Assembly (NCBI RefSeq): GCF_031085175.1
Contig: NZ_JAVHUY010000048.1
Coordinates: 1-64,000 of the forward strand
DNA length: 64,000 nucleotides
Source of the DNA: Phytohabitans maris
Lineage (GTDB): Bacteria > Actinomycetota > Actinomycetes > Mycobacteriales > Micromonosporaceae
Direction of reading: 5' to 3'
Shown: positions 51,058 through 64,000 of the stretch, piece by piece
Position numbering within the stretch: position 1 is the first letter of the stretch
Layout of the letters: each line of letters begins with the position of its first letter
Made by a program: the position numbers and the translations under genes
Notes under the pieces: generated by a model
The model's database searches: none
Told to the model about the DNA's origin: nothing
Seen by the model: only the letters and a program-made list of their open reading frames with translations

Positions 51058-51272
51058 CCGGCCGGCCCAGCACCCCGACTCCGGCCGCCGACTCCTCCTG
51101 ACCGCCGGGTAAGCGCCGGGCCCGACCGCCCGCTATCGACGGCGTGTCTATCCACCGGCGCGGGTCGGGACACGCTGGCCATTCACCTTCGCGTGCCACC
51201 CGGCACACACTACGGACATCGGCTACCGGCCGGGTCCTGAGCGGCCGGGCCACCGCGAAGGATGGATGGCTC

Positions 51273-52475
51273 TTGACACCCACGAAGACCAGGGCGGCGA
51301 TCGCCGGCGCGTACGAGCACCCGACCCGGTTCGCGCCGGACAAGAGTGAGTGGCTCCTGATGGCCGAGGCGTGCCAGGGCGCGATCCGGGACGCCGGGCT
51401 CCGGCCGGAGCAGATCGACGCGTTCTTCACCTCGGCCACCGCGCCGGAAGGGGGCTGGCTCGGCGCCTGCGCCTCGGTGATGGCCGCCGACTACCTCAAC
51501 ATCCACCCGAGGTTCATCGACGAGACCGACGTGGGCGGGGCGTCCTTCGGGTACTACGTCAACCGGGCCGTCATGGGCATCGAGGCCGGCCTGTTCAAAT
51601 GCGCCCTGATCGCGTACGGCGCGACCACCAGGTCGTTGGGCGTGAACGTCGGGACGGTACGTTACGACGACCTGACCGGCCAGCGGATCTCGCCGATGCC
51701 CGACGCCTTCGAGCAGGTGTACGGGACGACGGTCACCTCGTTCATGGGCCTGCTCACCCAGCGCTACATGCACGACTACGGCCTGACCTCGGAACAGTTG
51801 GCGCACGTCGCGGTGACCATGCGCGAGCACGCCGCGCTCAACCCGGACGCCGCCCACCGCAAGCCGCTGACGGTCGAGGACGTGCTCTCCTCACCGGTGA
51901 TCGCCTCGCCGCTGCACAAGTTCGACTGCTGCATCATCTCCGACGGCGCGGCCGCCCTTCTCGTCGTACACCGGGATCTGCTGCCGGAGTGTGCGAAGCC
52001 ACCGGTCTGGCTGGCCGGCTTCGGAGAGTCGATCATGCACCACGAGGGCGGGCTCGGCGACTGGGCCGCGGAGAGCCGCGAGATGGTGCGGCGCGCGTGC
52101 CGGCAGGCCTTCGACATGGCCGGCGTCGGTCCGGCCGACATCGACACCGCCATGATCTACGACGCGTTCACCGTGAACGTGGTCATCGACCTGGAAGGCG
52201 CCGGCTTCTGCGGCGTGGGCGAAGGCGGCGCGTTCGTGGCCGACGGCGGGCTGAAGCTCGACGGCGGGAGCCTGCCGACCAACCCCGACGGCGGCGGCCT
52301 GTCCTCCAACCATCCCGGCCGGCGCGGCATCTTCCTGTTCGTCGAGGCGACCCGGCAGCTGCGCGGCGAGGCGGACGGCCGCCAGGTCCCCGGCGCCGAG
52401 ACCGCCATGTGCACCGCCACCGGCGCCGCCTTCCTGGCCCGCCGCGGGTCCGCCGCGCACATCCTGACCCGATGA
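51273..52475 (+). CDS. Thiolase-fold protein (SCP-x/Ltp-like, probable retro-aldolase)
   Basis: The 400-residue thiolase-fold protein (TTG start at 51273, AAGGA upstream) matches the SCP-x/lipid-transfer branch. It has AAIAGAYEHPTRF, EACQGAIRDAGLRPEQIDAFFTS, DVGGASFGYYVNRAVMGIEAGLFKCALIAYG, CCIISDGAAALLV and DTAMIYDAFTVNVVIDLEGAGFC. The position of the thiolase nucleophilic Cys appears to be Gly (DVGGAS). Together with the overlapping DUF35 gene it resembles Ltp2-ChsH2_DUF35, where such a pair is an acyl-CoA aldolase. The start codon choice is moderately certain; upstream in-frame starts exist. Confidence 0.8.
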   Translation: MTPTKTRAAIAGAYEHPTRFAPDKSEWLLMAEACQGAIRDAGLRPEQIDAFFTSATAPEGGWLGACASVMAADYLNIHPRFIDETDVGGASFGYYVNRAVMGIEAGLFKCALIAYGATTRSLGVNVGTVRYDDLTGQRISPMPDAFEQVYGTTVTSFMGLLTQRYMHDYGLTSEQLAHVAVTMREHAALNPDAAHRKPLTVEDVLSSPVIASPLHKFDCCIISDGAAALLVVHRDLLPECAKPPVWLAGFGESIMHHEGGLGDWAAESREMVRRACRQAFDMAGVGPADIDTAMIYDAFTVNVVIDLEGAGFCGVGEGGAFVADGGLKLDGGSLPTNPDGGGLSSNHPGRRGIFLFVEATRQLRGEADGRQVPGAETAMCTATGAAFLARRGSAAHILTR

Positions 52476-52915
52476 GGAGCGACGCGTTGACTGCCAACCC
52501 CATCTACTGGCCGCAACCGGAGGTCAGCGGCGAGACCAAGCCGTTCTGGGACGCGTGCGGCCGGGGCGAGTTCCTCCTGCAGCGGTGCGACGACTGCGGC
52601 AGGTTCCAGTACCCGTACCGGGGTTTCTGCTGCCATTGCTGGGCCGGCCGGCCGCGGGACGTGCCGAGCACCGGCCGGGGGACCGTCTGGTCCTACTCCG
52701 TGGTGCGGCGCAACCGGTCCCGGGGACACGGTACCGAGCCGTACATCGTCGCCGTGGTCGAGCTGGAGGAGGGCGTCCGGGTCATCTCCAACCTGATGGA
52801 CTGCCCGCTCGACGACGTGGCGATCGGGCAGCCGGTCGAGGTGTACTTCCAGCCGCTCGACGACCTGTCGCTGCCGCTGTTCCGCCCGGTACCGGCGGTA
52901 AGTGACCAGGGATGA
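52472..52915 (+). CDS. Zn-ribbon OB-fold protein (DUF35 / ChsH2-like)
   Basis: The 147-residue protein has an N-terminal rubredoxin-like zinc ribbon with Cys pairs (LQRCDDCGRFQYPYRGFCCHCW). An OB-fold follows (GRGTVWSYSVVRRN, PYIVAVVELEEGVRVISNLMDCPLDDVAIGQPVEVYFQPL). Such proteins bind acyl-CoA for a partner thiolase, aldolase or dehydratase. It overlaps the thiolase-fold gene by 4 bases, so the two very probably form a complex, as do Ltp2 and the DUF35 domain of ChsH2. Confidence 0.9.
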   Translation: MRSDALTANPIYWPQPEVSGETKPFWDACGRGEFLLQRCDDCGRFQYPYRGFCCHCWAGRPRDVPSTGRGTVWSYSVVRRNRSRGHGTEPYIVAVVELEEGVRVISNLMDCPLDDVAIGQPVEVYFQPLDDLSLPLFRPVPAVSDQG

Positions 52916-53874
52916 TCATCGACTGCCACACGCACGTGCTCGACGCGGGGTTCTGGCCGCGGGAGTGGTTCGACCACGTCGCCGCAGACTGGGCCGGGCG
53001 CGCGCCGGGCCGGCGGCCCGAGATGGTCCGGGACAAGGTGGAGCCGGGCCTGCTCGATCCCGACGGCGACCGGATGGTGGCGGCGATGGACCGCGCCGGG
53101 GTCGCCGCGGCCGTGGTCCTGCCGTGGGACTGGGGTCCGGACTTCCACGCCCGCGCCTCGGTCCAGCGGGTCAACGAGCACGCCCTCGCGGTCGCCGCCC
53201 GCCACCGGGGGCGGATCATCCCGTTCGCCGGCGTCGACCCGCGCCGCCCGGGAGCCGCCGAGCTGGTCGAGCGGTTCCTGCGCGACGGCCCGGCGTACGG
53301 CGTCAAGCTCTACCCCGCGTGTGGCTGGGACCCGGCCGGGCCGGCGGCGCAGGCGGTCTACGACGTCTGCCAGTCCTTCGACGTACCGGTGCTGTTCCAC
53401 ACCGGGCACCCGTTGCCGCTGCTGGACGACCCGGGCGACCCGCTGCGCCTGCTGCCGGTGGTCCGGCGCAACCCGGCGCTGCGGGTGTGGCTCGGCCATG
53501 CCGGCGCGCCGGACGGGTTCGACGCCTGCCTGGCCGTTGCCGCGGCGTCGGAGCAGGTGAGCCTGGAGCTGTCGGTGTGGCTCTGGTCGGACAGCACGGG
53601 CGCCGACGTCGAGCGGCTCGCGTCGCGGGTGGTCGCCGCCCGCGACGCGGTCGGCATCGGCCGGCTGCTGTTCGGCTCCGACCACGTCTCCGGCCCGCGT
53701 ACCCGGGGAGAGAGCTTCCTGCCCACGGTGGTCGACCTGTTCACGTCCCTGCCCGAGGCCGCGCGGCGGATCGGGCACCGGGTCACCGGCGAGGAGATGA
53801 ACGCGATGCTGGGGCGCAACGCCGCGCGCCAGCTGCACTGGCGGGCCCCGACGAACTCGGTGGGAAGGCAATGA
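52912..53874 (+). CDS. Amidohydrolase_2-family protein (ACMSD-like)
   Basis: The 320-residue TIM-barrel protein begins with the metal-binding HxH in IIDCHTHVLD. It has later ligands in LFHTGHP and LGHAGAPDGFD and the catalytic Asp in LFGSDHVSGP. The group includes metal-dependent decarboxylases such as ACMSD and gamma-resorcylate decarboxylase, and lactone hydrolases. It is coupled by 4-base overlaps to both neighbours. In this context a decarboxylation or ring hydrolysis step is a reasonable guess. Confidence 0.85.
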   Translation: MIIDCHTHVLDAGFWPREWFDHVAADWAGRAPGRRPEMVRDKVEPGLLDPDGDRMVAAMDRAGVAAAVVLPWDWGPDFHARASVQRVNEHALAVAARHRGRIIPFAGVDPRRPGAAELVERFLRDGPAYGVKLYPACGWDPAGPAAQAVYDVCQSFDVPVLFHTGHPLPLLDDPGDPLRLLPVVRRNPALRVWLGHAGAPDGFDACLAVAAASEQVSLELSVWLWSDSTGADVERLASRVVAARDAVGIGRLLFGSDHVSGPRTRGESFLPTVVDLFTSLPEAARRIGHRVTGEEMNAMLGRNAARQLHWRAPTNSVGRQ

Positions 53875-56726
53875 CGGGTTATGACGCGGACGTGGTCGTC
53901 GTCGGGTTCGGCGGTGCGGGCGCCGCGGCCGCGCTCTCGGCGGCCGAACACGGCGCCGAGGTGCTCGTCGTCGACCGGGACACCCGCGGCGGCAACACGG
54001 CGCTCTCCGGCGGATCGCTGCGGCTGCGGCCGGACGTCGAACGGGCCGCGCGGTACCTGTCGACGCTCAGCCTCGACCGCAAGGCGGCGGCGGTGCACCG
54101 GTCGATGCTCGACGGGTGCCTGGACCTCGGGCGGTGGCTCGTCCGGCTGGGCGCGGAGATCGAGGAGATGAACGACGCGTTCGTCACGAACACGCTGCCC
54201 CGGGTGCTCGCCTCGCCGTACCCGACGATCGCCGGCTCCGAGGCCCTGGGTCCGCGCTTCCGGGTCCGCGGGCGCGCCGGCCAGAGCGGCGGCGACGCGG
54301 TCTGGGAGCTGCTGCGCGACGCGGTCCTGCGCCATCCCCGGATCACCGTCCGGACCCCGGCCGTCGCCGTCGAGCTGGTCCGCGCCGGGGAGCTGGGACG
54401 CGTGGACGGCGTACGCCTGCGGGAGACCGACGGCGTGCGCGCCGTGCGGGCCCGCCACGGCGTCGTGCTGGCCTGCGGCGGCTTCGAGTACGACCGGCGG
54501 CTCCAGCAGAACTACCTCGGGTTCTCGCTCCCGGCGTTCGGCTGGCCCGGCGGCAACGACGGCTCGGGCGTGCGGCTCGCCCAAGGGGTCGGCGCCGCCC
54601 TGTGGCACATGACCTCGATCGCGTCGGTCCTCGGCTACCAGCTGCCCGGCCTGGAAGCCGCGGTGCGGCACTCGATGCCCGACCTCGGGTACATCTACGT
54701 CGACCAGGAGTGCGCGCGCTTCGTCGACGAGACCGGTGTCGACTTCCACGCCATCCCGATGGACCTGCTGCGGATGAACCCGCGTACGTTCCGGCGCGAC
54801 CGGATGCCGTCCTTCCTGGTCTTCGACGAGACGACGCGGGCGGCCGGTCCGATCGCCGACACCTACCTCACCCCGTACCGCGACGAGTTCCGCTGGAGCC
54901 GCGACAACCGCGCCGAGATCGAGCACGGGTGGATCGCGGCCGCCGAGACACCACGGGAGCTCGCCGCCGCGCTCGGCCTGGACCCGGAGGCGCTGGCCGC
55001 GACCGTCGAGCGGTACAACGCCGGTGCCGCCGCCGGCACCGACCCGCTCGGCCGCGCCGCCGGGGACCTGCGCCCGCTGCGCGGCCCGTTCTACGGCGTC
55101 GCCCTGTGGCCGTGCCTCATCAACACCCAGGGCGGCCCGCGCCGCGACGCCACCTGCCGGATCCTCGACCCGGGCGGCGAGCCGATCCCCGGCCTGTTCG
55201 GCGCCGGCGAGCTCGGTTCGATGTGGACACAGCTGTATCCGGGCGCCGGCAACCTCACCGAGGCCATCGTCACCGGCCGGACGGCGGGCGCGGCGGCGGC
55301 CGAGGCGCTCGCCCCAGCCAACGGCAAGACGCCGGCGACCGACACCGGCGCACCCGCGGTGACCGACGCGCTGGCCGCGTTCGTCGCGGGCCTGCGCGCC
55401 GGCGACCTGCCGGACACGGCGCTGCGGGCCGCCCGCCGGTGCGTGCTGGACCAGCTCGGCTGCGCGGTCTTCGGCTCCACCCTCCCGTGGTCGGCGCTGG
55501 TCCGCGACTACGTGCGCGACGAAGGGTCCGCGCCCCGGGCGCTGGTCTGGGGCAGCGGCCTGCGCGCGTCGGCCACCCTCGCGGCCCTGGCGAACGCCAC
55601 CGCCGGCCACGCCTTCGAGATCGACGACCTGCACGCCGGCGCCTGCTTCCACCCGGGGGCGGTGACACTGCCGGTGGCGACCGCGGTCGCGCAGGCCTGC
55701 GGACCGCTGTCCGGCGCCGACTGGCTCGCCGCGGTCGTCGCCGGCTACGAGGTGGGCGCCCGGGTCGGCCTGGCGCTGGGCATCGACCACTTCCTCGCCG
55801 GCCACCACCCGCAGGGCACGGTCGGGGTCTTCGCCGCCGCCGCCACGGCCGCCCGCGCGCTCGGCCTCGACGCCGCCGCGACCGCGGACGCCTTCGGCAT
55901 CGCCGCGAGCATGTCCGCCGGCCTCATGGCGGCGCAGGAGGGCGGCATGGTCAAGCGACTGCACTCCGGGCACGCGGCGGCCAGCGGGGTACAGGCCGCC
56001 CTGCTGGCCCGGCGCGGGTTCACCGGCATCAAGTCGGTCCTCGAGGTGCCGTTCGGCGGCTTCCTGTCGACGATGGGCGGCGACCAGGCCAAGCTCCGCG
56101 CGTCGGTCGCCGGGCTCGGCACCACCTGGGAGATCGAACAGGTCGGGTTCAAGGCGTACGCCAGCTGCGCGACCAACCACACCTCGATCGAGGCGGTCGA
56201 GCTGCTGCTGGCCCGGCACCGGCTGACGGCGGCGGACGTCGCCCGCGTCGAGGTGCACGTCACCAGCGACGCGGCGATCCACGGCGGCTACGAGTACCTG
56301 GGGCGCGAGGTGATCGAGGCCCAGATGAGCCTCAAGTACGCGGTCGCGCTGCTGCTGACGTTCGGCACCGTGGAGGCGGCGCACTTCCGCGACGGCGTCA
56401 TCGCCCGCGAGGACCTGGTCGCGCTGGCCAAGTCCGTCGACGTCGTCGGCGACCCGGGGATAGACGCGCTCGGGGAGGCACGCCGGTTCACCGCCTGGGC
56501 CCGGATCGAGACGGTGGACGGCCGCGAGTTCCGGCAGGAGGTCGACGACCGCAAGGGCGACCCGAGCCGTCCACTCTCCGACGACGACCTGGAACGGAAG
56601 TTCCGCGACCTGCTGGCGGCCGCCGGCTCCCCGCACGCCGACCGGATCCTGCGCCTGGTCGGCGACCTCCCGCGGCTCGGCGACGTCGCCGAGCTCGCCG
56701 TCCTGCTCGGTGGTGAGGGCGCATGA
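53871..56726 (+). CDS. Fusion: fumarate-reductase-type flavoprotein plus MmgE/PrpD domain
   Basis: This is a 951-residue two-enzyme fusion. Residues 1-478 are an FAD_binding_2 flavoprotein: DVVVVGFGGAGAAAALSAAE, TALSGGSLRL, and the C-terminal FGAGELGSMWTQLYPGAGNLTEAIVTGR, which holds the FAD isoalloxazine. A short Thr/Pro/Ala linker (about 479-497) leads to a complete MmgE/PrpD domain (498-951): AARRCVLDQLGCAVFG, GHAFEIDDLHAGACFHPG, KRLHSGHAAASGVQAALLARRGFTG and YASCATNHTSIEAV. The latter family dehydrates 2-methylcitrate or decarboxylates aconitate. I do not know of such a fusion as a standard type. Reading frame and codon usage are continuous across the junction. The next gene is a stand-alone relative of the first half. 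Confidence 0.9.
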   Translation: MTGYDADVVVVGFGGAGAAAALSAAEHGAEVLVVDRDTRGGNTALSGGSLRLRPDVERAARYLSTLSLDRKAAAVHRSMLDGCLDLGRWLVRLGAEIEEMNDAFVTNTLPRVLASPYPTIAGSEALGPRFRVRGRAGQSGGDAVWELLRDAVLRHPRITVRTPAVAVELVRAGELGRVDGVRLRETDGVRAVRARHGVVLACGGFEYDRRLQQNYLGFSLPAFGWPGGNDGSGVRLAQGVGAALWHMTSIASVLGYQLPGLEAAVRHSMPDLGYIYVDQECARFVDETGVDFHAIPMDLLRMNPRTFRRDRMPSFLVFDETTRAAGPIADTYLTPYRDEFRWSRDNRAEIEHGWIAAAETPRELAAALGLDPEALAATVERYNAGAAAGTDPLGRAAGDLRPLRGPFYGVALWPCLINTQGGPRRDATCRILDPGGEPIPGLFGAGELGSMWTQLYPGAGNLTEAIVTGRTAGAAAAEALAPANGKTPATDTGAPAVTDALAAFVAGLRAGDLPDTALRAARRCVLDQLGCAVFGSTLPWSALVRDYVRDEGSAPRALVWGSGLRASATLAALANATAGHAFEIDDLHAGACFHPGAVTLPVATAVAQACGPLSGADWLAAVVAGYEVGARVGLALGIDHFLAGHHPQGTVGVFAAAATAARALGLDAAATADAFGIAASMSAGLMAAQEGGMVKRLHSGHAAASGVQAALLARRGFTGIKSVLEVPFGGFLSTMGGDQAKLRASVAGLGTTWEIEQVGFKAYASCATNHTSIEAVELLLARHRLTAADVARVEVHVTSDAAIHGGYEYLGREVIEAQMSLKYAVALLLTFGTVEAAHFRDGVIAREDLVALAKSVDVVGDPGIDALGEARRFTAWARIETVDGREFRQEVDDRKGDPSRPLSDDDLERKFRDLLAAAGSPHADRILRLVGDLPRLGDVAELAVLLGGEGA

Positions 56727-58213
56727 CCTCGGCCAAGCGCGGCGCCGAGTTCGACGTCGTGGTCATCGGGTTCGGCGCGGCCGGCGCGGCCGCCGCCATC
56801 GTGGCGCACGACGCCGGCGCCCGGGTCGCGGTGATCGAACGCGGTGACGTCGGCGGCGGCCACACCCGCGAGTCCGGCGGCTCGCTGCGCAAGATAGACG
56901 ACGCGGTCGCCGCCACCGCCTACTTCGAGGCCCTCGCCGGCGCCGGTGAGCTGCTGCCGCTGTACCGCTCGTTCGCCGAAGAGGCCAATGGCTGCCTGGC
57001 GTGGCTGGCCGATCTGGGCGCGCAGCTGGTCGAGGTGCACGGCGAGTGGATCGCCGGCTACCCGCGCGCCCTGCGGCGCCTCTACCCGGGCGCGCCACTT
57101 CCCGCCGGCATCGGCCCGCGCGTGCAGGTCGCGCCCGCGTCCGGCCAGACCGCCGCCGAGGCACTGTGGACGGTGCTGGAGTCGGCCGTCCGCTCCCGCG
57201 ACATCACGGTGCGGTACCGGACACCGGCGCGGCGGCTGCTCGTCGACCCCGGCAGCGGACGGGTCGACGGCGTACGGGTGGCCAACCGCGCCGGCCGCAC
57301 GTCGGTGCTCCGCGCCCGGTACGGCGTCGTGCTGGCCTGCGGCGGCTGGGCCGGCGACCCCGGGCTCCTGCAGGACTACATCGGCACGACCCTGCCGATG
57401 CTCTCGTCGGTCTCCTCGAACGTCGGCGACGGCATCCGGATGGGGGAGTCGGTCGGTGCCGCGTTCCGGCACATGTCGGCCCTCGCCGTCGTGCTCGGCT
57501 ACCGCCTGGAGGACGGGCAGCACGCGCTGCAGCACGTGATGCGCGCGCCCGGCTTCGTGTACGTCGACCGGACCGGCGAGCGGTTCGTCGACGAGACCGG
57601 CATCGACTTCCATCTGCTGCCGCTGGCGTTCATGCAGTTCGACCACGCCCGGGCGACCTATCCGCACCTGCCGGCGTACGTCGTGTTCGACGACGTGACC
57701 CGCCGGGCCGGGCCGATCGTCAACCTGGCCCTGCGCGCCACCCAGCGGTGCGGGTGGAGCGAAGACAACTCCTCGGAGGTACGCAGCGGCGTGATCTCCA
57801 GCGCGCCGACCGTACCGGATCTCGCCGCCGCGCTCGGGCTGCCCGGGCAGCGGCTGGCCGAGACGGTCGAGGCGTACAACGCGGCCGTGCGGTCGGGCAG
57901 CGACCCGTTCGGGCGCAGCGCCGAGCACATGGCGCCGATCGAGACGCCGCCCTACTACGGCATCCGGGTCGAGCCCGCGCTCGTCAACACGCAGGGCGGA
58001 CCGGTCCGCGACGAGCTCGGCCGGGTCCTGCGGCCCTCCGGCGAACCGGTGCCCGGCCTGTTCAGCGCCGGTGAGCTCGGCTCGATGTGGGCCACGCTCT
58101 ATCCGGGCGCCGGCAACCTCACCGAGGCCCTGACCACCGGTCGTATCGCCGGCCGAAGCGCGACCACCGGGGTACCGGTCGCGGCGTCCGGCTCCACGAA
58201 GGGAGCACCATGA
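56723..58213 (+). CDS. FAD-dependent oxidoreductase (fumarate reductase / ketosteroid dehydrogenase-like)
   Basis: The 496-residue flavoprotein is closely parallel to the first half of the preceding fusion: DVVVIGFGAAGAAAAIVAHDAGARV, HTRESGGSLRKI, GVVLACGGWAGDPGLLQDYIG, RFVDETGIDFHLLP and SAGELGSMWATLYPGAGNLTEAL. The members of this family reduce or dehydrogenate C=C bonds using FAD. The pair probably arose by duplication and may act as two sequential steps or as a heterodimer. It overlaps its neighbours by 4 bases on each side. The electron donor or acceptor is unknown. Confidence 0.88.
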   Translation: MTSAKRGAEFDVVVIGFGAAGAAAAIVAHDAGARVAVIERGDVGGGHTRESGGSLRKIDDAVAATAYFEALAGAGELLPLYRSFAEEANGCLAWLADLGAQLVEVHGEWIAGYPRALRRLYPGAPLPAGIGPRVQVAPASGQTAAEALWTVLESAVRSRDITVRYRTPARRLLVDPGSGRVDGVRVANRAGRTSVLRARYGVVLACGGWAGDPGLLQDYIGTTLPMLSSVSSNVGDGIRMGESVGAAFRHMSALAVVLGYRLEDGQHALQHVMRAPGFVYVDRTGERFVDETGIDFHLLPLAFMQFDHARATYPHLPAYVVFDDVTRRAGPIVNLALRATQRCGWSEDNSSEVRSGVISSAPTVPDLAAALGLPGQRLAETVEAYNAAVRSGSDPFGRSAEHMAPIETPPYYGIRVEPALVNTQGGPVRDELGRVLRPSGEPVPGLFSAGELGSMWATLYPGAGNLTEALTTGRIAGRSATTGVPVAASGSTKGAP

Positions 58214-58836
58214 CCCAGGCGACGGCGGCACAGCTGTACGGCGTCTTCTTCGACGTCGTGCCGGACTTCGTGGAGGAGTTCGAGCCCTGGTTCGCCCGGC
58301 GGCACGCACCCGACCTCGACCGGTCGGGCATCCAGGCGCTGCGCGCGTACCGCTGCGACGAAGGCGACCACGGGTTCGTGAACATCTACGAGGTGCCGGG
58401 CCCGGAGGTCTTCGACAAGCCGGCGTACCGGCGGGCCCGCGACGACGACGACCGCCTCGACCGCGCCGAGTCGAAGCTGCGCGGCCTGCGCAAGGCGACC
58501 TACGTGCAGCGGCCGGTCGTACCGGGCGACGGGGCGGCCGCGCCGCCGCCCTGGATGTGCGCGCTCAGCTTCTCCGGGGACGTGACCGACGCCGAGGTCG
58601 ACGCCTGGACGGCCGAGCGGTTCGCCGGGTCGGCGGCCGCCCGCGTCCGGGTCGGCCGGCTCGCCGGCCTGCACCCGCTCTTCCGCGACGCGCCCGCCCA
58701 GGACCTGCTGGTGCTCGGCGAGTGGCCCGAGCGTCCGGCCGGCGCCGCGGCCCTGCCGGAGGCGCTGCGGGCCCGCTTCGGCGACCGCGTCGACGACGTC
58801 CAGTACGCCGTCGGCCGGCTCTACCTCGCCCTCTGA
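58210..58836 (+). CDS. Dimeric alpha-beta barrel protein (EthD-like), uncharacterised
   Basis: The 208-residue protein has two halves that each look like a ferredoxin-type alpha-beta unit: GVFFDVVPDFVEEFEPWFARRHAPDLDR then FVNIYEVPGPEVFDKPAYRRAR, and in the second half WMCALSFSGDVTDAEVDAWTAERF then LLVLGEWPERPAG. EthD-like and related barrels are small oxidation or decarboxylation proteins. No catalytic residue is obvious. It is coupled to the flavoprotein (ATGA) and followed by a 54-base gap. Confidence 0.6.
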   Translation: MTQATAAQLYGVFFDVVPDFVEEFEPWFARRHAPDLDRSGIQALRAYRCDEGDHGFVNIYEVPGPEVFDKPAYRRARDDDDRLDRAESKLRGLRKATYVQRPVVPGDGAAAPPPWMCALSFSGDVTDAEVDAWTAERFAGSAAARVRVGRLAGLHPLFRDAPAQDLLVLGEWPERPAGAAALPEALRARFGDRVDDVQYAVGRLYLAL

Positions 58837-58890: not shown

Positions 58891-60408
58891 ATGAACCTGA
58901 CCGCGGCGCTTCTCGAGCGCAGCCGCGACCGCTGGTCCCGTCCCGCGCTCACCACCGAGGGCGGGGCGCGGCTGACGTACGGCGAGCTGTTCGACGCCGT
59001 GTCGCGCGCCGCCGGCCGGCTGGCCGCCGCGGGGGTACGGCGGGACTCGAAGGTCGTCGTCTTCGCCGAGAACTGCGCCGCGTACGCCGTCGTCTACCTC
59101 GCCTGTGCCCGGCTGGGCGCGGCGCTGGCGACCGCGCATCCCGGGTTCCGTCGCGTCGAGCTGGCCGGCATCGTGGCCGACTGCGACCCGGCCGTGATCG
59201 TCGTCGACCGCCCGCTGCGCCCGGTCGTCGACGAGGTGCTCGCCCAGCGTCCCAGCCGGGCGACCCTGCTGGAGATCGACTCGCGGGACGAGGCGGCCGA
59301 CGGCTGGGGATCCGAAGCCGTCACCGCCGACCTGGACCTGCCCGGTACCCATCCGGTGCTGATCGCCTACACCTCCGGTTCGACCGACCGGCCCAAGGCC
59401 GTCGTGCACGGCCACGCCGGTCAGGTCTTCGTCGCCTCCGCCCACGAACGGGTCTGGCATCTCGGACCGGACGACCGGCTGCTGCTCTCGCTGTCGATGT
59501 CGTGGTTGTACGGCCTGGTGACCTCCTGCCTCGCCACGCTGTTCGCCGGCGGCGAGGTGCTGATGCTGCGGCACTTCAACCCGGTCCGGGCGCTGGCCCT
59601 GGTCGAGGAGCGCGGCGCGACGGTGATGACCGGCGTCACCACGATGTACGTCAAGCTGGTCGAGGTGGCCGGGCGGGGCCCGGTCGCGTCGAGGCTGCGC
59701 CTGTGCGTCGCCGGCGGCGAGCCCCGCAACGACGCCGCCTTCGCCCGGTTCGCCGACCGGTTCGGCGTACCGGTGCTCGACTGCTACGCCTCGTCGGAGT
59801 GCCTGCCGGTCGTCGCGCACGACACCGCGCGGCTGGCGGGCATCCACGACAGGGCGGTCGGCCGGGCGGTCCCCGGGGTGCAGGTCCGGATCGTCGACCC
59901 GGACGGCCGGGACGTGCCGGCCGGCGAGGTGGGCGAGCTGGTCGTGCGCAGCCCCGGGCAGATGCTCGGGTACCTCGACAACCCGGAGCTGACCGCGTCG
60001 GTGCTGCGCGACGGGTGGTACCACACCCGCGACCTGTGCCGGATGGACGGCGACGGCTGCCTGTCCATCCTCGGCCGGGCCACCGACATGATCATCCGAG
60101 GCGGTGCCAACGTCTCCCCGGTCGAGGTCGAACGGGTCCTGGCCGAGCACCGCCTCGTCGAGGAGTGCGCGGTCGTGGGGATACCCGACGACACGTACGG
60201 GCAGACGCCGCACGCGTTCGTGGTGCTGGCCGAGGACGCCGAGGCCGACGGCGACGCGCTGCGCGAGTTCTGCCGGAGCCACCTGGCCGAGTACAAGGTG
60301 CCGTCCGGCTTCAGCTTCGTGGCGGAGCTGCCCCACGGGCCGAACGGCAAGGTCGCCCGGGCCCGGCTGCGACCGCACGCACCTACGACAGGAGGAGAAC
60401 GTCCGTGA
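58891..60408 (+). CDS. AMP-forming acyl/aryl-CoA ligase
   Basis: The 505-residue adenylate-forming enzyme has the P-loop-like YTSGSTDRPKAV, the adenylate-contact YASSEC and the hinge GRATDMIIRGGANVSPVEVE. The catalytic Lys is in PHGPNGKVARARL. The layout fits benzoate-CoA-ligase-like or cyclohexanecarboxylate-CoA-like enzymes. AAGGAGAG precedes ATG 58891. It would activate the pathway acid with CoA for the thiolase-fold/DUF35 pair. Confidence 0.9.
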   Translation: MNLTAALLERSRDRWSRPALTTEGGARLTYGELFDAVSRAAGRLAAAGVRRDSKVVVFAENCAAYAVVYLACARLGAALATAHPGFRRVELAGIVADCDPAVIVVDRPLRPVVDEVLAQRPSRATLLEIDSRDEAADGWGSEAVTADLDLPGTHPVLIAYTSGSTDRPKAVVHGHAGQVFVASAHERVWHLGPDDRLLLSLSMSWLYGLVTSCLATLFAGGEVLMLRHFNPVRALALVEERGATVMTGVTTMYVKLVEVAGRGPVASRLRLCVAGGEPRNDAAFARFADRFGVPVLDCYASSECLPVVAHDTARLAGIHDRAVGRAVPGVQVRIVDPDGRDVPAGEVGELVVRSPGQMLGYLDNPELTASVLRDGWYHTRDLCRMDGDGCLSILGRATDMIIRGGANVSPVEVERVLAEHRLVEECAVVGIPDDTYGQTPHAFVVLAEDAEADGDALREFCRSHLAEYKVPSGFSFVAELPHGPNGKVARARLRPHAPTTGGERP

Positions 60409-60917
60409 CCCGCAAAGACGAGCTCGCCCAGCGAAACCTCTACCAGGAGCTGGTCGCGCTCCGCGACGAGCAGCGGGCGCGCCGGGACGACCAGATCCGG
60501 GTCGTCAAGTTCGGCGACCTGCCGTGGGAGACCAACCCGCAGGGCGTCGTCCGGTGGTACCTGCACCCGGCGCTGGACGACGTCGCGATCAACTCGCTGA
60601 TGTTCTTCGTACAGGAGGTGCCGCCCGGGTCCCGCACAGGCAGGCAACGGCTGCAGGGCGGCCAGCTCGTCTACATCTGGCGGGGGCGCGGCCACAGCGA
60701 GATCGACGGCGCGGTCCACCACTGGGAGACCGGTGACCTGATCAACCTGCCGCTGGTCGCCGAGGGCGTCGTCGTGCAGCACTTCAACGACGACCCGAAG
60801 GAGGCGGCGCGGCTGGTCTGCGCCGAACCGAACTACGTGCACTCCCTCGGCGTCGACATGGGCAGCGGGTTCGTGCAGATCGAGGACGCGCCGGAGTATC
60901 CGGCGGCAAAGCCGTGA
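60405..60917 (+). CDS. Cupin-domain protein (first of two flanking the AAA+ gene)
   Basis: The 170-residue single-cupin protein has VVRWYLHPALDDVAINSLMFFVQEVPPGSRTGRQRLQGGQLVYIWRGRGHSEIDGAVHHWETGDLINLPL and VVQHFNDDPKEAARLV. Some of the usual cupin His ligands are replaced, but His in VHHWE and VQHF may bind metal. It resembles the barrel of gentisate-type dioxygenase-like or auxiliary cupins. It overlaps the ligase gene and the AAA+ gene by 4 bases each, so it is strictly co-expressed with them. Confidence 0.78.
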   Translation: MTRKDELAQRNLYQELVALRDEQRARRDDQIRVVKFGDLPWETNPQGVVRWYLHPALDDVAINSLMFFVQEVPPGSRTGRQRLQGGQLVYIWRGRGHSEIDGAVHHWETGDLINLPLVAEGVVVQHFNDDPKEAARLVCAEPNYVHSLGVDMGSGFVQIEDAPEYPAAKP

Positions 60918-63034
60918 CCGTCTTCGCCGGCGACCTCGACATCGTCCGGGCGGAAGCGTCCGGCGACGGGCCGTTGTGGTGCTCGCTGCCTGAAGCGGCG
61001 CTGCCGGACCTCACGGCCAGGCCCGGTCTCGTCCGGGTTTCGGTGCCCTCCGGCGCCACCGCCCTGGCCCGGCTGACCACGCACGCCGCCGGCGACCGGA
61101 TCCGGGTCGACCGGTCGCTGCGCGTCACACTGCGCTGCAAGGTCGGCGACCGGCTGACCGTCGCGCCGGCCATCGGCCCCGACGGCGCCCCGATCGGGGA
61201 GAGCGTCGCCGAGGTCACCGTCGCCGCCGCCGGCGACCTCGCCGCGCTGCTGGAGGCGGGACTGGAGGAGCGGCTGGGCAAGCACCTGCACTCCACCGGC
61301 GTGCCGCTGACCGCCGGAGCGGTGTTGCACGTCGACCTGCTGCCCGGTCTCGGCACGACGATCTGCCGGGTCACCGAGCTGGCCGGCGCCGAGGGCCTGG
61401 CCGGGCCGAACACCGCGGTGCGGGTCCGCTTCGGCACCGACCTGCGGTTTACCGACGTCTCGCAGCGGGTCACGTTCGCCGACGTCGGCGGGCTCCCGAC
61501 CGTGCTCGCGGCGGCGCGCGAGATCGTCGAACTGCCGATCGCCTCGCCGTGGGCCTACCGCCAGCTCGGCGTCAACCCCATCCGCGGCGTCATCTTCCAC
61601 GGCGCGCCGGGCACCGGCAAGACGTTCGTCGCCCGCGCCGTCGCGAACGAGCTGAACGCCCGCACGTTCCAGATCAACGGTGCGGACGTCGCCGGGCGGA
61701 TGGCGTCCGAGGCCCAGGACGCGCTGCGCCGCATCTTCCACGAGGCGCAGCACCACACACCGTCGATCGTGATCATCGACGAGGTGGACGCGCTGGCGCC
61801 GGCCCGCGAGCACCTCGGCTCGCAGAAGGACTCCAAGCTCGTCTCGCAGCTGCTCACGATGATGGACGGGATGCACGGCTCCGAGGGCATGGTCGTCATC
61901 GGCACCACCAACCGGATCGAGGCGATCGACCCGGCCCTTCGGCGACCCGGCCGGTTCGAGCGCGAGCTGCGCTTCACGCTGCCCGACGCGCGCGGGCGCC
62001 TGGAGATCCTCGACGTGCAGAGCCGCGACATGCCCCTGACCCCGGCGGCCGCCGCGGCGCTGCCCGTGGTCGCCGACCGTACCGGCGGCTTCGCCGGCGC
62101 CGACCTGGTCGCGGTCTGCCGCGAGGCGGCGTTGCGGACCCTCCGGGTCGCGGGTGTCTGCGGCGGCCCGCCTCCGGTCGACGCGGAGCACCTGTTCGCC
62201 GCGCTGGAGCAGGTCGAGCCGGCGGCACTGCGCGGGGTCGCCCGATTCGCCGCACGGCCCCGGTGGTCGGGTCTGGCCGGCATGACGGCGCTCAAGGACG
62301 AGCTGCGCCGCGGCGTCGAGCTGGCCCGCGCCCATCCCCACCTGCTCGAGCTGATGGAGCTGCCGGCCAGCACGGCGCTGCTGCTGCACGGCCCCAGCGG
62401 CAACGGCAAGTCGACGCTGGCCGCCGGGCTCGCCGCCGAGGTCGGCGTACACCTGGTGCACGTACGCGGGCCGGAGCTGTTCAGCAAGTGGCTCGGCGAG
62501 TCGGAGAGCGCGCTGCGGCACGCGTTCACGGTGGCGCACCAGGTGGCGCCCAGCGTCATCGTGCTCGACCAGCTCGAGGTGATCGCCCCGCGGACGGTGG
62601 CGGAGAACGACCCCGCCGCCGCCCGGATGCGCGAGCAGCTCTTCGCCGAGCTCGACGCCATCGCGTCGGACGGCGACGTCTGGGTGGTGGCCACCGCGGA
62701 CGACCTGGACGCGGTCGACCCCGCGGTGCTGCGCGGCGGCCGCTTCGACCGGCGGATCGAGGTGGGGCCCCCGGACGCCGCCGACCGGGAAGCCATCGCG
62801 CGCCGGCTCCTGGGCGGCACCGCGCGGTACCTGGACGCCGACCTCGACCAGGCGGTCGCCGCGGTCGTCGCGGCGACCGAGGGCGCCTCCCGGGCCGCGG
62901 TCCGCGGCCGCTGCGAGCGCGCCAAGCTCGCCGCGCTCGGGCGCCACCTCGACGCCGGGGCCCGGGGCCGGATCGAGATCCGCGTCGACGACATCAGCAA
63001 GTCAGGGGTCATGGAACCGCCGAAGGCGAAGTGA
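60914..63034 (+). CDS. p97/Cdc48-like double AAA+ ATPase
   Basis: The 706-residue protein has a Cdc48-type N domain (residues 40-175; RIRVDRSLRVTLRCKVGDRLTV matches the double-psi barrel). D1 carries Walker A GAPGTGKT (230-237) and Walker B IVIIDEVD with Glu290. D2 carries Walker A GPSGNGKS (493-500), the pore loop FSKWLGES and Walker B VIVLDQ. Position 553 of D2 is Gln where the catalytic Glu is expected, the same change used to trap ATP-bound mutants. Arg-finger motifs are present in both (RRPGRFER, RGGRFDRR). It should form a hexamer that remodels or unfolds proteins, with hydrolysis probably only in D1. In this operon it may be an activase for one of the enzymes. Confidence 0.92.
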   Translation: MTVFAGDLDIVRAEASGDGPLWCSLPEAALPDLTARPGLVRVSVPSGATALARLTTHAAGDRIRVDRSLRVTLRCKVGDRLTVAPAIGPDGAPIGESVAEVTVAAAGDLAALLEAGLEERLGKHLHSTGVPLTAGAVLHVDLLPGLGTTICRVTELAGAEGLAGPNTAVRVRFGTDLRFTDVSQRVTFADVGGLPTVLAAAREIVELPIASPWAYRQLGVNPIRGVIFHGAPGTGKTFVARAVANELNARTFQINGADVAGRMASEAQDALRRIFHEAQHHTPSIVIIDEVDALAPAREHLGSQKDSKLVSQLLTMMDGMHGSEGMVVIGTTNRIEAIDPALRRPGRFERELRFTLPDARGRLEILDVQSRDMPLTPAAAAALPVVADRTGGFAGADLVAVCREAALRTLRVAGVCGGPPPVDAEHLFAALEQVEPAALRGVARFAARPRWSGLAGMTALKDELRRGVELARAHPHLLELMELPASTALLLHGPSGNGKSTLAAGLAAEVGVHLVHVRGPELFSKWLGESESALRHAFTVAHQVAPSVIVLDQLEVIAPRTVAENDPAAARMREQLFAELDAIASDGDVWVVATADDLDAVDPAVLRGGRFDRRIEVGPPDAADREAIARRLLGGTARYLDADLDQAVAAVVAATEGASRAAVRGRCERAKLAALGRHLDAGARGRIEIRVDDISKSGVMEPPKAK

Positions 63035-63045
63035 GGGAGGCCGGC

Positions 63046-63558
63046 ATGGGCCAGCAACGACAGATGGAGAAGCAACGCGAGCTGGAGGAGGCGGGGTACA
63101 GCGAGCCGTACGCCCGCGCGATGGCGGTGCTGGCCGAGCGGGACGAGCGGGCCCGTACCGGCAAGGTGGTCATCCGGCAGTCCGACCGCGAATGGCTCAC
63201 CGACCGGATGGCCGCCCGGTGCCTCTACTACCTCGACCACCACTACGAGGACTCGGCGAACGTCGACTGGCGGGTCTTCTGCCACGACATCGTCACGCAG
63301 TCCGGCGGCCACCGGCACCAGGGCGGGCTGGCGCTGTTCGTGCTGGAGGGGCGGGGCGCGACCATCATGGACGGTGTCCGGTACGACTGGGAGGCCGGCG
63401 ACCTGGTGCTGCTTCCGGTCAAGCCCGACCAGGTGGACCACCAGCACATCAACCTCGGCGGAAACGCCAAGTGGCTGGCGTTCATCTACTCGCCGATGTG
63501 GCAGGCCGTGGCCAGCACGATGGTGCCGACGAAGGACCGCCCGGGATGGGACTCGTGA
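63046..63558 (+). CDS. Cupin-domain protein (second of two flanking the AAA+ gene)
   Basis: The 170-residue protein from ATG 63046 has GGGAGG just upstream. A helical leader (QMEKQRELEEAGYSEPYARAMAVLAERDERAR) precedes a cupin with better-preserved ligands (QSGGHRHQGGLALFVLEGRGATIMDG then WEAGDLVLLPV and DHQHINLGG). The HxH and later His residues are likely metal-binding, so dioxygenase-like chemistry is possible. It shares domain layout with the cupin before the AAA+ gene. GTG 63031, adding five residues, is an alternative start. Confidence 0.8.
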   Translation: MGQQRQMEKQRELEEAGYSEPYARAMAVLAERDERARTGKVVIRQSDREWLTDRMAARCLYYLDHHYEDSANVDWRVFCHDIVTQSGGHRHQGGLALFVLEGRGATIMDGVRYDWEAGDLVLLPVKPDQVDHQHINLGGNAKWLAFIYSPMWQAVASTMVPTKDRPGWDS

Positions 63559-64000
63559 ACCGGTGGGGACTGTCGCTGGGCGTCAGCCCGCGCGAGCCGC
63601 TCACGAACGTGCCGGTGCTGGCCGCGCTGGGCGAGACGCTGGGCTTCGAGACACTGTGGTACATCGACTTCCAGCTCGGCATGAAGGACGTGTACGCGGC
63701 GATGTACCTCGCCGCCCAGGCAACCTCCCGGATGGAGATCGGCTCGGCGGTGACCAACCTGCAGACCCGGCACCCCACGGTGACCGCCAACGCCACCGCC
63801 GCGCTGGACGAGATCAGCGGCGGGCGTGCCCTGCTCGGCCTGGGTGCCGGCTGGTCGGCGGTGCTCGGCGCCGGGTACCAGCCGGCCCGGATGCCGCAGA
63901 TCCGCGCGGGCATCGCCGAGTTCCGCCGCCTGTTCACCGGCGAGGAGCAGGAGCTGTACGGCACGACGGTGAAGCTGGCCACGGCCCGCCGGCAGATCCC
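63555..64000 (+). CDS. Luciferase-like (LLM) flavin-dependent oxidoreductase, partial
   Basis: The first 148 residues of a luciferase-like monooxygenase lie at the right edge (GTG 63555, GTGA coupling; ATG 63546 is an alternative). Blocks LGVSPREPLTNVPVLAALGETLGFETLWYIDF and GGRALLGLGAGWSAVLGA are typical of F420- or FMN-dependent members. It would oxidise or reduce the pathway compound. The C-terminal half is outside the window. Confidence 0.85.
   Translation, partial: MNRWGLSLGVSPREPLTNVPVLAALGETLGFETLWYIDFQLGMKDVYAAMYLAAQATSRMEIGSAVTNLQTRHPTVTANATAALDEISGGRALLGLGAGWSAVLGAGYQPARMPQIRAGIAEFRRLFTGEEQELYGTTVKLATARRQI

Follow-up and report, generated by a model that had tools for sequence, protein, structure and literature searches.

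What work does a bacterial relative of p97/Cdc48 carry out when its second ATPase ring has exchanged the catalytic glutamate of Walker B for glutamine, and when its gene is enclosed by genes of a quite different kind? This question is raised by a 64,000 nucleotide stretch of Phytohabitans maris DNA (contig NZ_JAVHUY010000048.1, positions 1 to 64,000; hereafter the window), in which the forward strand at 60914-63034 encodes a 706 amino acid (aa) AAA+ ATPase flanked by two single-cupin genes, here termed CupA and CupB. Sequence comparison places the ATPase in a distinct clade with cupin genes as its recurrent neighbours. We propose that it is a dedicated remodeller (an activase or maturation chaperone) of cupins that resemble gentisate dioxygenase, driven by its D1 ring and stapled together by its D2 ring, a reading to which we give a probability of about one half.

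A Cdc48-like ATPase with an altered second ring

The original prediction, made from the DNA letters, described a complete ATPase with N domain, D1 and D2 in p97 order, and our analysis bears this out. The 706-codon frame is open from its GTG start, which overlaps the CupA stop, and its G+C content by codon position (0.78/0.52/0.96) has the pattern of a coding frame. Two Pfam AAA matches were found, and the TIGR01243 CDC48 model aligns to residues 57-697 at 426.3 bits; as this lies below the curated cut-off of 802.65, the protein is best described as a Cdc48 relative and not a typical member. The predicted structure, with a mean predicted local distance difference test (pLDDT) score of 84.3, has human p97 chains as its top Protein Data Bank (PDB) matches (Foldseek E 8e-61), and its alignments to p97/Cdc48 span 709-736 columns over the 50 chains listed. 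By sequence, the top PDB matches are Afg2 homologue A, VAT and Cdc48/p97.

D1 of the window ATPase carries a Walker A motif (GAPGTGKT, residues 230-237) and a Walker B motif (IIDE, 287-290) that ends in an intact Asp-Glu pair. The D2 Walker B motif reads VLDQ (550-553), and the codons of its last two residues are GAC CAG, so that the predicted exchange at residue 553 is present in the DNA and the codon does not specify Glu. D2 retains its Walker A motif, the KWLGES pore loop and the Arg-finger positions R607 and R610, again as predicted; the loss of the sensor-1 Asn, replaced by Asp at residue 596, had escaped the original prediction. Exchange of the Walker B Glu for Gln blocks hydrolysis of ATP and not its binding, and is the usual engineered trap in AAA+ proteins.

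The D2 substitution marks a distinct clade

Homologues were collected from genomes and contigs with the window protein and then with profiles of four and twelve homologues. The alignment holds 160 distinct Cdc48-like sequences, after exclusion of repeats of the same gene under several loci and of FtsH, Mpa and other distant AAA matches. Apart from the window and later additions, all sequences came from profiles of the clade described below, and the set is therefore not a random sample.

Read as D1/D2, the Walker B pairs were DE/DE in 134 sequences, DE/DQ in 16, DE/DH in three, DE/EQ in two and DE/DS in one. The remaining four resemble Cpa, the actinobacterial Cdc48-like protein of the Rv0435c family, with a degenerate D1 and DE in D2, and were used as the outgroup. 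The 21 ATPases with Gln or His form exactly one clade (FastTree support 1.0), and this clade persists when the Walker B region (residues 545-560) is masked. Among further Chloroflexota matches we found two extra Gln copies (a second copy in L224, and L226; L and G numbers are our handles for loci and genomes), which were assigned to the clade by score and motif and do not figure in the tree. Position 553 is thus Gln in 20 and His in three of 23 members (codons CAG 16, CAA 4, CAC 3) and Glu in none. A pair of hydrolysis-competent rings, with DE in both Walker B motifs as in Cdc48/p97, is seen in none of the 23, where D2 reads DQ, EQ or DH. Conversely, Gln at this position was absent from all 162 readable non-clade Cdc48-like sequences, comprising 139 from the alignment and 23 of 25 other Chloroflexota ATPases; these 25 were scored for Walker B only and gave DE in 21, DD in one and DH in one, with two cut off.

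Pairwise identity within the clade over D1-D2 ranges from 36 to 96 %, with a median of 52 %. The retention of Gln in so many members at this level of divergence, through two synonymous codons, is more than chance would give, and the pattern looks like constraint rather than drift; position 553 ranks with the better conserved residues of D2, where 41 of 189 positions are conserved to at least the same degree. The question raised with the original prediction, whether Gln is fixed, can therefore be answered at the level of the clade, in which Gln or His is fixed. L083 is nearly identical to L082, and the window copy to L007, which leaves about 21 lineages among the 23 members. The L007 ATPase, from genome G057, is 94 % identical to that of the window, and the two frames part from about residue 684; one copy or the other may be affected by a frameshift or a sequencing error towards its C terminus.

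The clade is sparsely distributed. We found a member in 4 of 200 genomes from the window's family, in 2 of the 6 from its genus (G057 being the sole other one), in 4 of 396 in a sample of its phylum (G000, the window's own genome, with G231, G250 and G274) and in 2 of 394 in a sample of its class (G000 and G667). The Chloroflexota sample yielded 8 of 261, and a sample of the phylum of G968 yielded 1 of 257, G968 itself, with two copies. Confinement to actinobacteria was considered and ruled out by members in other phyla: the cupin-adjoined ATPase spans Actinobacteria (Blastococcus, Acidimicrobiaceae), Chloroflexota and one deltaproteobacterial genome. Plasmid-borne spread was likewise rejected, as none of 48 plasmid-collection records covers 80 % of the query; the relatives among the matches listed there share about 37-41 % identity and come from Rhizobium, haloarchaea and others.

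The catalytic Glu of D2 has also been lost outside the clade, in L192 (DS), L240 (DD) and L245 (DH), and silencing of D2 may have occurred several times in bacteria.

Cupin genes adjoin the ATPase gene

We scored adjacency as a cupin of the same family within flanks of up to 1.6 kb, as far as flanking sequence reached. On this definition, 18 of 20 clade loci, the window and the two later copies have an adjoining cupin (21 of 23), compared with none of the 139 non-clade Cdc48-like genes. No cupin lies next to the ordinary DE copies of two cupin-rich genomes (L126, L132), and none of the 21 homologues in a cupin context carries DE in D2. From these sequences the association appears near-obligate, and it hints at a motor that serves a single kind of metal enzyme and not protein turnover in general. 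The link to a pathway enzyme that had been predicted is thus upheld in the form of a tie to a cupin family of pathway-enzyme type.

The arrangement of the genes is far more variable than their association. In the window, CupA starts with GTG at 60405 behind AGGAGG, overlaps the stop of the preceding ligase gene and, at its 3' end, overlaps the ATPase start; CupB begins 11 bases past the ATPase stop. The predicted cupin-AAA-cupin order recurs in the near twin G057, and does not hold for the other loci, which are ordered differently. Two single cupin genes accompany the ATPase at L012, L082, L083, L107 and L151/L227, and genes for two-domain bicupins at L011, L026 (Blastococcus haudaquaticus DSM 44270), L027, L105, L106, L224, L137 and L138, as well as at L125 together with a further cupin. 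Single CupB-type genes without CupA occur at L139/L223, and larger sets at L113 (four open reading frames, ORFs) and L226 (six ORFs); at L140 the cupin sequence is cut by a contig end. Layouts may be convergent, divergent or co-directional, with cupins fused or split, and the link is kept throughout.

Co-occurrence across genomes points the same way. Among 261 Chloroflexota genomes, 8 have both ATPase and cupin, none the ATPase alone, 9 the cupin alone and 244 neither (cupin E 1e-20; Fisher 5e-11), although Fisher tests count related sequences as independent. In the genomes of the 25 other Chloroflexota ATPases, a family cupin at E 1e-20 was found only in G1138, whose ATPase has DE. A direct scan of 13 genomes found cupins in 12, the exception being G657, which has a Cdc48 with DE in D2. 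The Chloroflexota genome G1194 has CupB-type cupins at E 1e-52, and a clade ATPase was not found in it at the threshold used. Two genomes represent a large cupin expansion, G966 (L025) with 36 matches to the CupB profile and G968 (L027) with 38, beside one and two clade ATPases, respectively.

These data bear on a more ordinary account, in which a bacterial Cdc48 of general proteostasis is carried in catabolic operons while its D2 decays under relaxed constraint. Several type II AAA+ proteins have one degenerate ring (D1 in Pex1/6 and in Cpa), Glu has been lost independently at L192, L240 and L245, and the window D2 lacks its sensor-1 Asn as well and sits on a long branch, all of which such decay would produce. 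It would not be expected to leave only Gln or His at position 553, with two Gln codons in use and with the D2 Lys, R610 and the Trp of the pore loop fixed, which is the mark of constraint; nor does cupin adjacency of the observed strength look like hitch-hiking. We consider this account very unlikely and already disfavoured.

The cupins resemble gentisate and salicylate dioxygenases

In CupB-type cupins, H89, H91, H132 and H134 are invariant in 10 of 10 alignment rows. The first PDB match of the CupB-type profile is gentisate 1,2-dioxygenase 3bu7 (E 1.5e-21), with the HxH motif and the later His aligned, and residues H89, H91 and H132/H134 would provide a three-His iron site. Gentisate dioxygenases are also the first matches of the predicted L027 bicupin structure, with template modelling (TM) scores of about 0.43-0.46 over both barrels (3bu7, 2d40) and 12-19 % identity; this model has a poor overall pLDDT of 64.2, with low scores for the N-terminal part and the inter-barrel linker, and the fold match was for that reason used only alongside the sequence match. 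The cupins score at most 42.5 bits with the curated dioxygenase models TIGR02272 and NF049978, where 442.1 and 650 are called for. They therefore share with gentisate and salicylate 1,2-dioxygenases their profile and fold matches, the HxH...H site and the frequent presence of one domain without HxH, and differ in their low identity, their often split genes and their link to an ATPase. We conclude that they resemble these dioxygenases and are putative enzymes.

A complete HxH...HxH site was found by pattern search and alignments in 18 of 20 cupin-bearing loci; the two exceptions are G1025 and the first copy in G982, each read only in part. More than one domain has a complete site in G667, G968 (second copy), G975, G982 (second copy) and G1090. 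The metal sites of L011, L012, L106, L026, L224 and the L082/L083 CupA were taken from alignments, not from the pattern search, and the CupA model was built without the L011 row. CupA of the window falls in one family with cupins of L107, L027, L012 and L082, scores 21.7 bits with Pfam Cupin_2 (cut-off 27.2) and carries GSRTGRQRLQGG where GxHxHQGG is expected. HxH has similarly been lost from CupA-type domains of G057, L012, L027, L105-L107 and others. Three His hold the iron in dioxygenases of the gentisate/salicylate type, and one of the bicupin domains is often vestigial, according to the available part of PMC10306065.

The strongest rival to an enzyme-remodelling role is that the cupins are adaptors or sensors, binding a small ligand or metal together with the N domain of the ATPase and recruiting another pathway protein, much as Ufd1/Npl4 serve p97. 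p97 does act through N-domain adaptors, CupA-type domains without HxH would suit a binding-only subunit, and the excess of cupins over ATPases in G966 and G968 would fit many adaptors served by one motor. However, we found no second protein constantly placed beside the module, the full metal site is retained at most cupin-bearing loci, the nearest solved relatives of the cupins are enzymes, and a vestigial second domain is nothing unusual in a bicupin dioxygenase (PMC10306065, available part). On balance the adaptor role seems to us doubtful.

A proposed division of labour between the rings

Within the 21 tabulated clade members, the D1 residues of Walker A (K236, T237), Walker B (D289, E290), sensor-1 (N333) and both Arg fingers (R344, R347) are each present in every sequence. 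In D2, K499, R610 and the pore residue W526 are likewise present in all 21 and R607 in 20; the sensor-1 Asp 596 is confined to the window and L007. Since the D1 motor residues and the ATP-binding residues of D2 are kept while the Glu is gone, D2 most likely binds ATP and does not hydrolyse it. The pore Tyr of D1 at position 264, which 132 of the 135 non-clade sequences other than Cpa have, occurs in only 3 of the 21. The grip has thus been mostly lost from the fuelled ring and the fuel from the gripping ring, which argues against ordinary threading through D2 and for a clamp-like D2.

These features led us to propose the following mechanism. The ATPase would be a p97/Cdc48-type machine of a distinct bacterial clade, presumably hexameric, in which D1 would act as the ATP engine. 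D2 would form a permanently ATP-stapled ring that binds ATP without turnover, holds the hexamer together and offers a fixed collar of pore Trp residues. Cycling of D1 would move the N domains and a bound cupin, instead of threading and destroying the cupin, and this movement could open the cupin for exchange of a metal or an inhibitor. We infer the hexamer, the cupin as client, and activation or metal loading in place of degradation.

It is also conceivable that D2 still hydrolyses ATP slowly, using Gln, His or another base, so that the ring is tuned rather than locked and both rings thread substrate. A pore Trp fixed in D2, combined with the loss of most D1 pore Tyr residues, would be odd in a ring that never moves, and gives this idea some appeal. 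We nevertheless hold it to be improbable: the exchange is the one used to trap ATP in engineered proteins, and the window D2 has in addition lost its sensor-1 Asn. Furthermore, a rhodococcal Cpa with a double Walker B mutation (D312N,E566Q) binds nucleotide without hydrolysis, as described in the available text of PMC6017811.

A more specific version of the remodelling idea concerns metal. Clusters of at least five His in 20 residues were detected in 8 of 21 clade ATPases and in none of 135 non-clade sequences. They contain 5-7 His, for example HHHHGPSDHDHDHAG; seven lie between N and D1, and that of L111 lies near the N end. The count was restricted to the model envelope, which excludes a cluster near the N end of L009 and the His-rich ORFs L084 and L059. 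Metallochaperones such as HypB have His-rich stretches of this kind, and the clusters seen here hint at metal loading. It is tentatively possible that the clade forms a maturation system in which D2 would be an ATP-stapled platform, while D1 and, in many members, a His-rich linker would load or re-load iron or another metal into cupins, from one to dozens per genome. Seven of the eight carriers belong to one subclade and none is the window, so the His cluster says more about the clade than about the window.

A proteasome link was examined as a leading idea and set aside: the penultimate Tyr of an HbYX-type end was found in none of 21 clade C-termini. This absence is not decisive, because Cpa, which also lacks an HbYX C-terminus, is reported to bind the proteasome (PMC6017811, available part).

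Several observations weigh against a dedicated cupin remodeller. The cupin is named as substrate from gene neighbourhood only. L025 has no cupin on a 14 kb locus, although other contigs of the same genome (G966) hold its 36 cupin-domain matches; the other clade locus without a cupin, L141, has flanks of only about 0.7-0.9 kb. Beside the G1090 ATPase we found only CupB-type singles and no CupA, so a CupA and CupB pair is not universal, and CupA of the window has itself lost HxH. A clade ATPase was not found in 9 of 17 cupin-bearing Chloroflexota genomes (E 1e-20), which indicates that the cupin can at times do without the ATPase. In L192, L240 and L245 no cupin was seen, and a silent D2 alone thus does not imply a cupin-related job. 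Finally, the window ATPase and its near twin have no His cluster, and the concentration of the clusters in one subclade means that Fisher values overstate their independence.

Relation to known AAA+ systems

The clade shares with p97/Cdc48, VAT and Afg2 the N-D1-D2 order and fold, the motor residues of D1, and the Walker A motif, Arg fingers and aromatic pore loop of D2. It differs from them in the exchange of the D2 Glu for Gln or His, in the loss of most D1 pore Tyr residues and in its cupin partner genes. Among described actinobacterial groups, the closest that we found is Cpa: like the clade, it is a bacterial two-ring protein with one degenerate ring and no HbYX end (PMC6017811, available part). 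The clade is nonetheless not Cpa-like, as it is separate in the tree and shows the opposite ring pattern; Cpa, with its degenerate D1 and DE in D2, is its mirror image. Both types occur in the window's genome, where a Cpa-like gene at C9:18102-19619 (L003, L005, L128) has a degenerate D1 and an intact D2. The Cpa- and Mpa-like genes of this genome, its G+C content of 72 % and its kin agree with a place in the Actinobacteria. The neighbourhood of cpa differs too, with psd/pssA in two of three branches; the Cpa paper puts the sporadic Cdc48 homologues from outside the actinobacteria together with those of archaea, and the clade is not mentioned in its available part (PMC6017811).

In its manner of working, the closest analogue may be NSF/Sec18, in which D1 drives and D2 is inactive and structural, serving oligomerization (PMC12440825, available part); the residues of the clade agree with such a scheme. 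NSF/Sec18 scores 358.7 bits, below Afg2, VAT and p97, and its adaptors and substrates differ. AAA+ motors devoted to one metabolic enzyme, as proposed here, include the Rubisco activases and the MoxR-type NirQ-NorD and CbbQO, and NirQ-NorD is required for functional nitric oxide reductase. They belong, however, to other AAA+ groups, and CbbQ and NirQ pair with a VWA protein instead of a cupin (all from the available part of PMC5437159).

We found no report of an AAA/Cdc48-cupin pairing in the open-licence literature. NCBIfam and Pfam give the ATPase and cupin genes only general AAA/CDC48-type and cupin names. To our knowledge, no Cdc48-type 'dioxygenase activase' has been described before, and most bacterial Cdc48-like proteins outside Cpa have no job that we know of.

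Gene surroundings

The original prediction placed the ATPase inside a catabolic operon. This is correct for the window (Table 1), and does not extend to a general rule: elsewhere the cupin is constant and the transport and catabolic genes vary, and the neighbours scanned include no constant catabolic partner besides the cupins. Genes for transporters and solute-binding proteins turn up repeatedly, with differing families (NMT1, TctC, SBP families, ABC, MFS). The enzymes around the modules include CoA ligases, FAD enzymes, MmgE/PrpD, Amidohydro_2, luciferase-like monooxygenases and one Rieske/LigXa oxygenase; genes near single loci are Rieske/LigXa, FAD_binding_3, amidohydrolase, isochorismatase-like and uptake genes. 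Such surroundings suggest that small acids, perhaps aromatic ones, are taken up and degraded.

Table 1. Features of the ATPase-cupin locus in the window, in order of position
Feature	Position	Strand	Basis or remark
Amidohydro_2 protein	52912..53874	+	Pfam
FAD_binding_2 and MmgE/PrpD in a single ORF, upstream in operon	53871..56726	+	
FAD_binding_2 dehydrogenase, same operon	56723..58213	+	Pfam
207 aa protein without Pfam match, same operon	58213..58836	+	also in G057
Acyl-CoA ligase (AMP-binding), same operon	58891..60408	+	Pfam
CupA, single cupin, metal-binding HxH lost	60405..60917	+	pattern search without HxH; weak Pfam Cupin_2
p97/Cdc48-like AAA+ ATPase, N-D1-D2, 706 aa	60914..63034	+	open frame, Pfam, TIGR01243, predicted model
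D1 Walker B Asp-Glu, residues 289-290, intact	61778..61783	+	
D2 Walker A GPSGNGKS, residues 493-500, intact	62390..62413	+	
D2 pore loop KWLGES, residues 525-530	62486..62503	+	Trp 526 in 21/21 tabulated clade members
D2 Walker B Asp-Gln, residues 552-553, natural Glu-to-Gln	62567..62572	+	
D2 sensor-1, residue 596, Asp replaces Asn	62699..62701	+	alignment
CupB, single cupin, gentisate-dioxygenase-like metal site (GGHRHQGG ... HQHINL)	63046..63558	+	Pfam Cupin_2 35.6 bits
Luciferase-like monooxygenase, starts at CupB stop, extends past window end	63555..64000	+	L013:3556-4572

In the 951 aa ORF upstream in the operon, FAD_binding_2 occupies residues 7-461 and MmgE/PrpD residues 500-925. The corresponding G057 ORF (L010:14723-16339) has only the MmgE/PrpD part in that frame, and the window ORF is possibly a fusion or a frame problem. 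Further upstream, at 51144-52915 on the forward strand, a thiolase-like protein adjoins a ChsH2-type OB-fold/zinc-ribbon protein, a pair reminiscent of steroid side-chain aldolase partners.

Implications

The genomes themselves name a partner for this bacterial p97 relative: cupins, kept beside it through gene fusion, splitting and inversion. The finding bears on two questions, namely what bacterial relatives of p97 do, and why several two-ring AAA+ motors silence one of their rings. If the activase reading is true, a Cdc48-type motor would join the known enzyme activases, and its action could explain cupin enzymes that are inactive when expressed alone.

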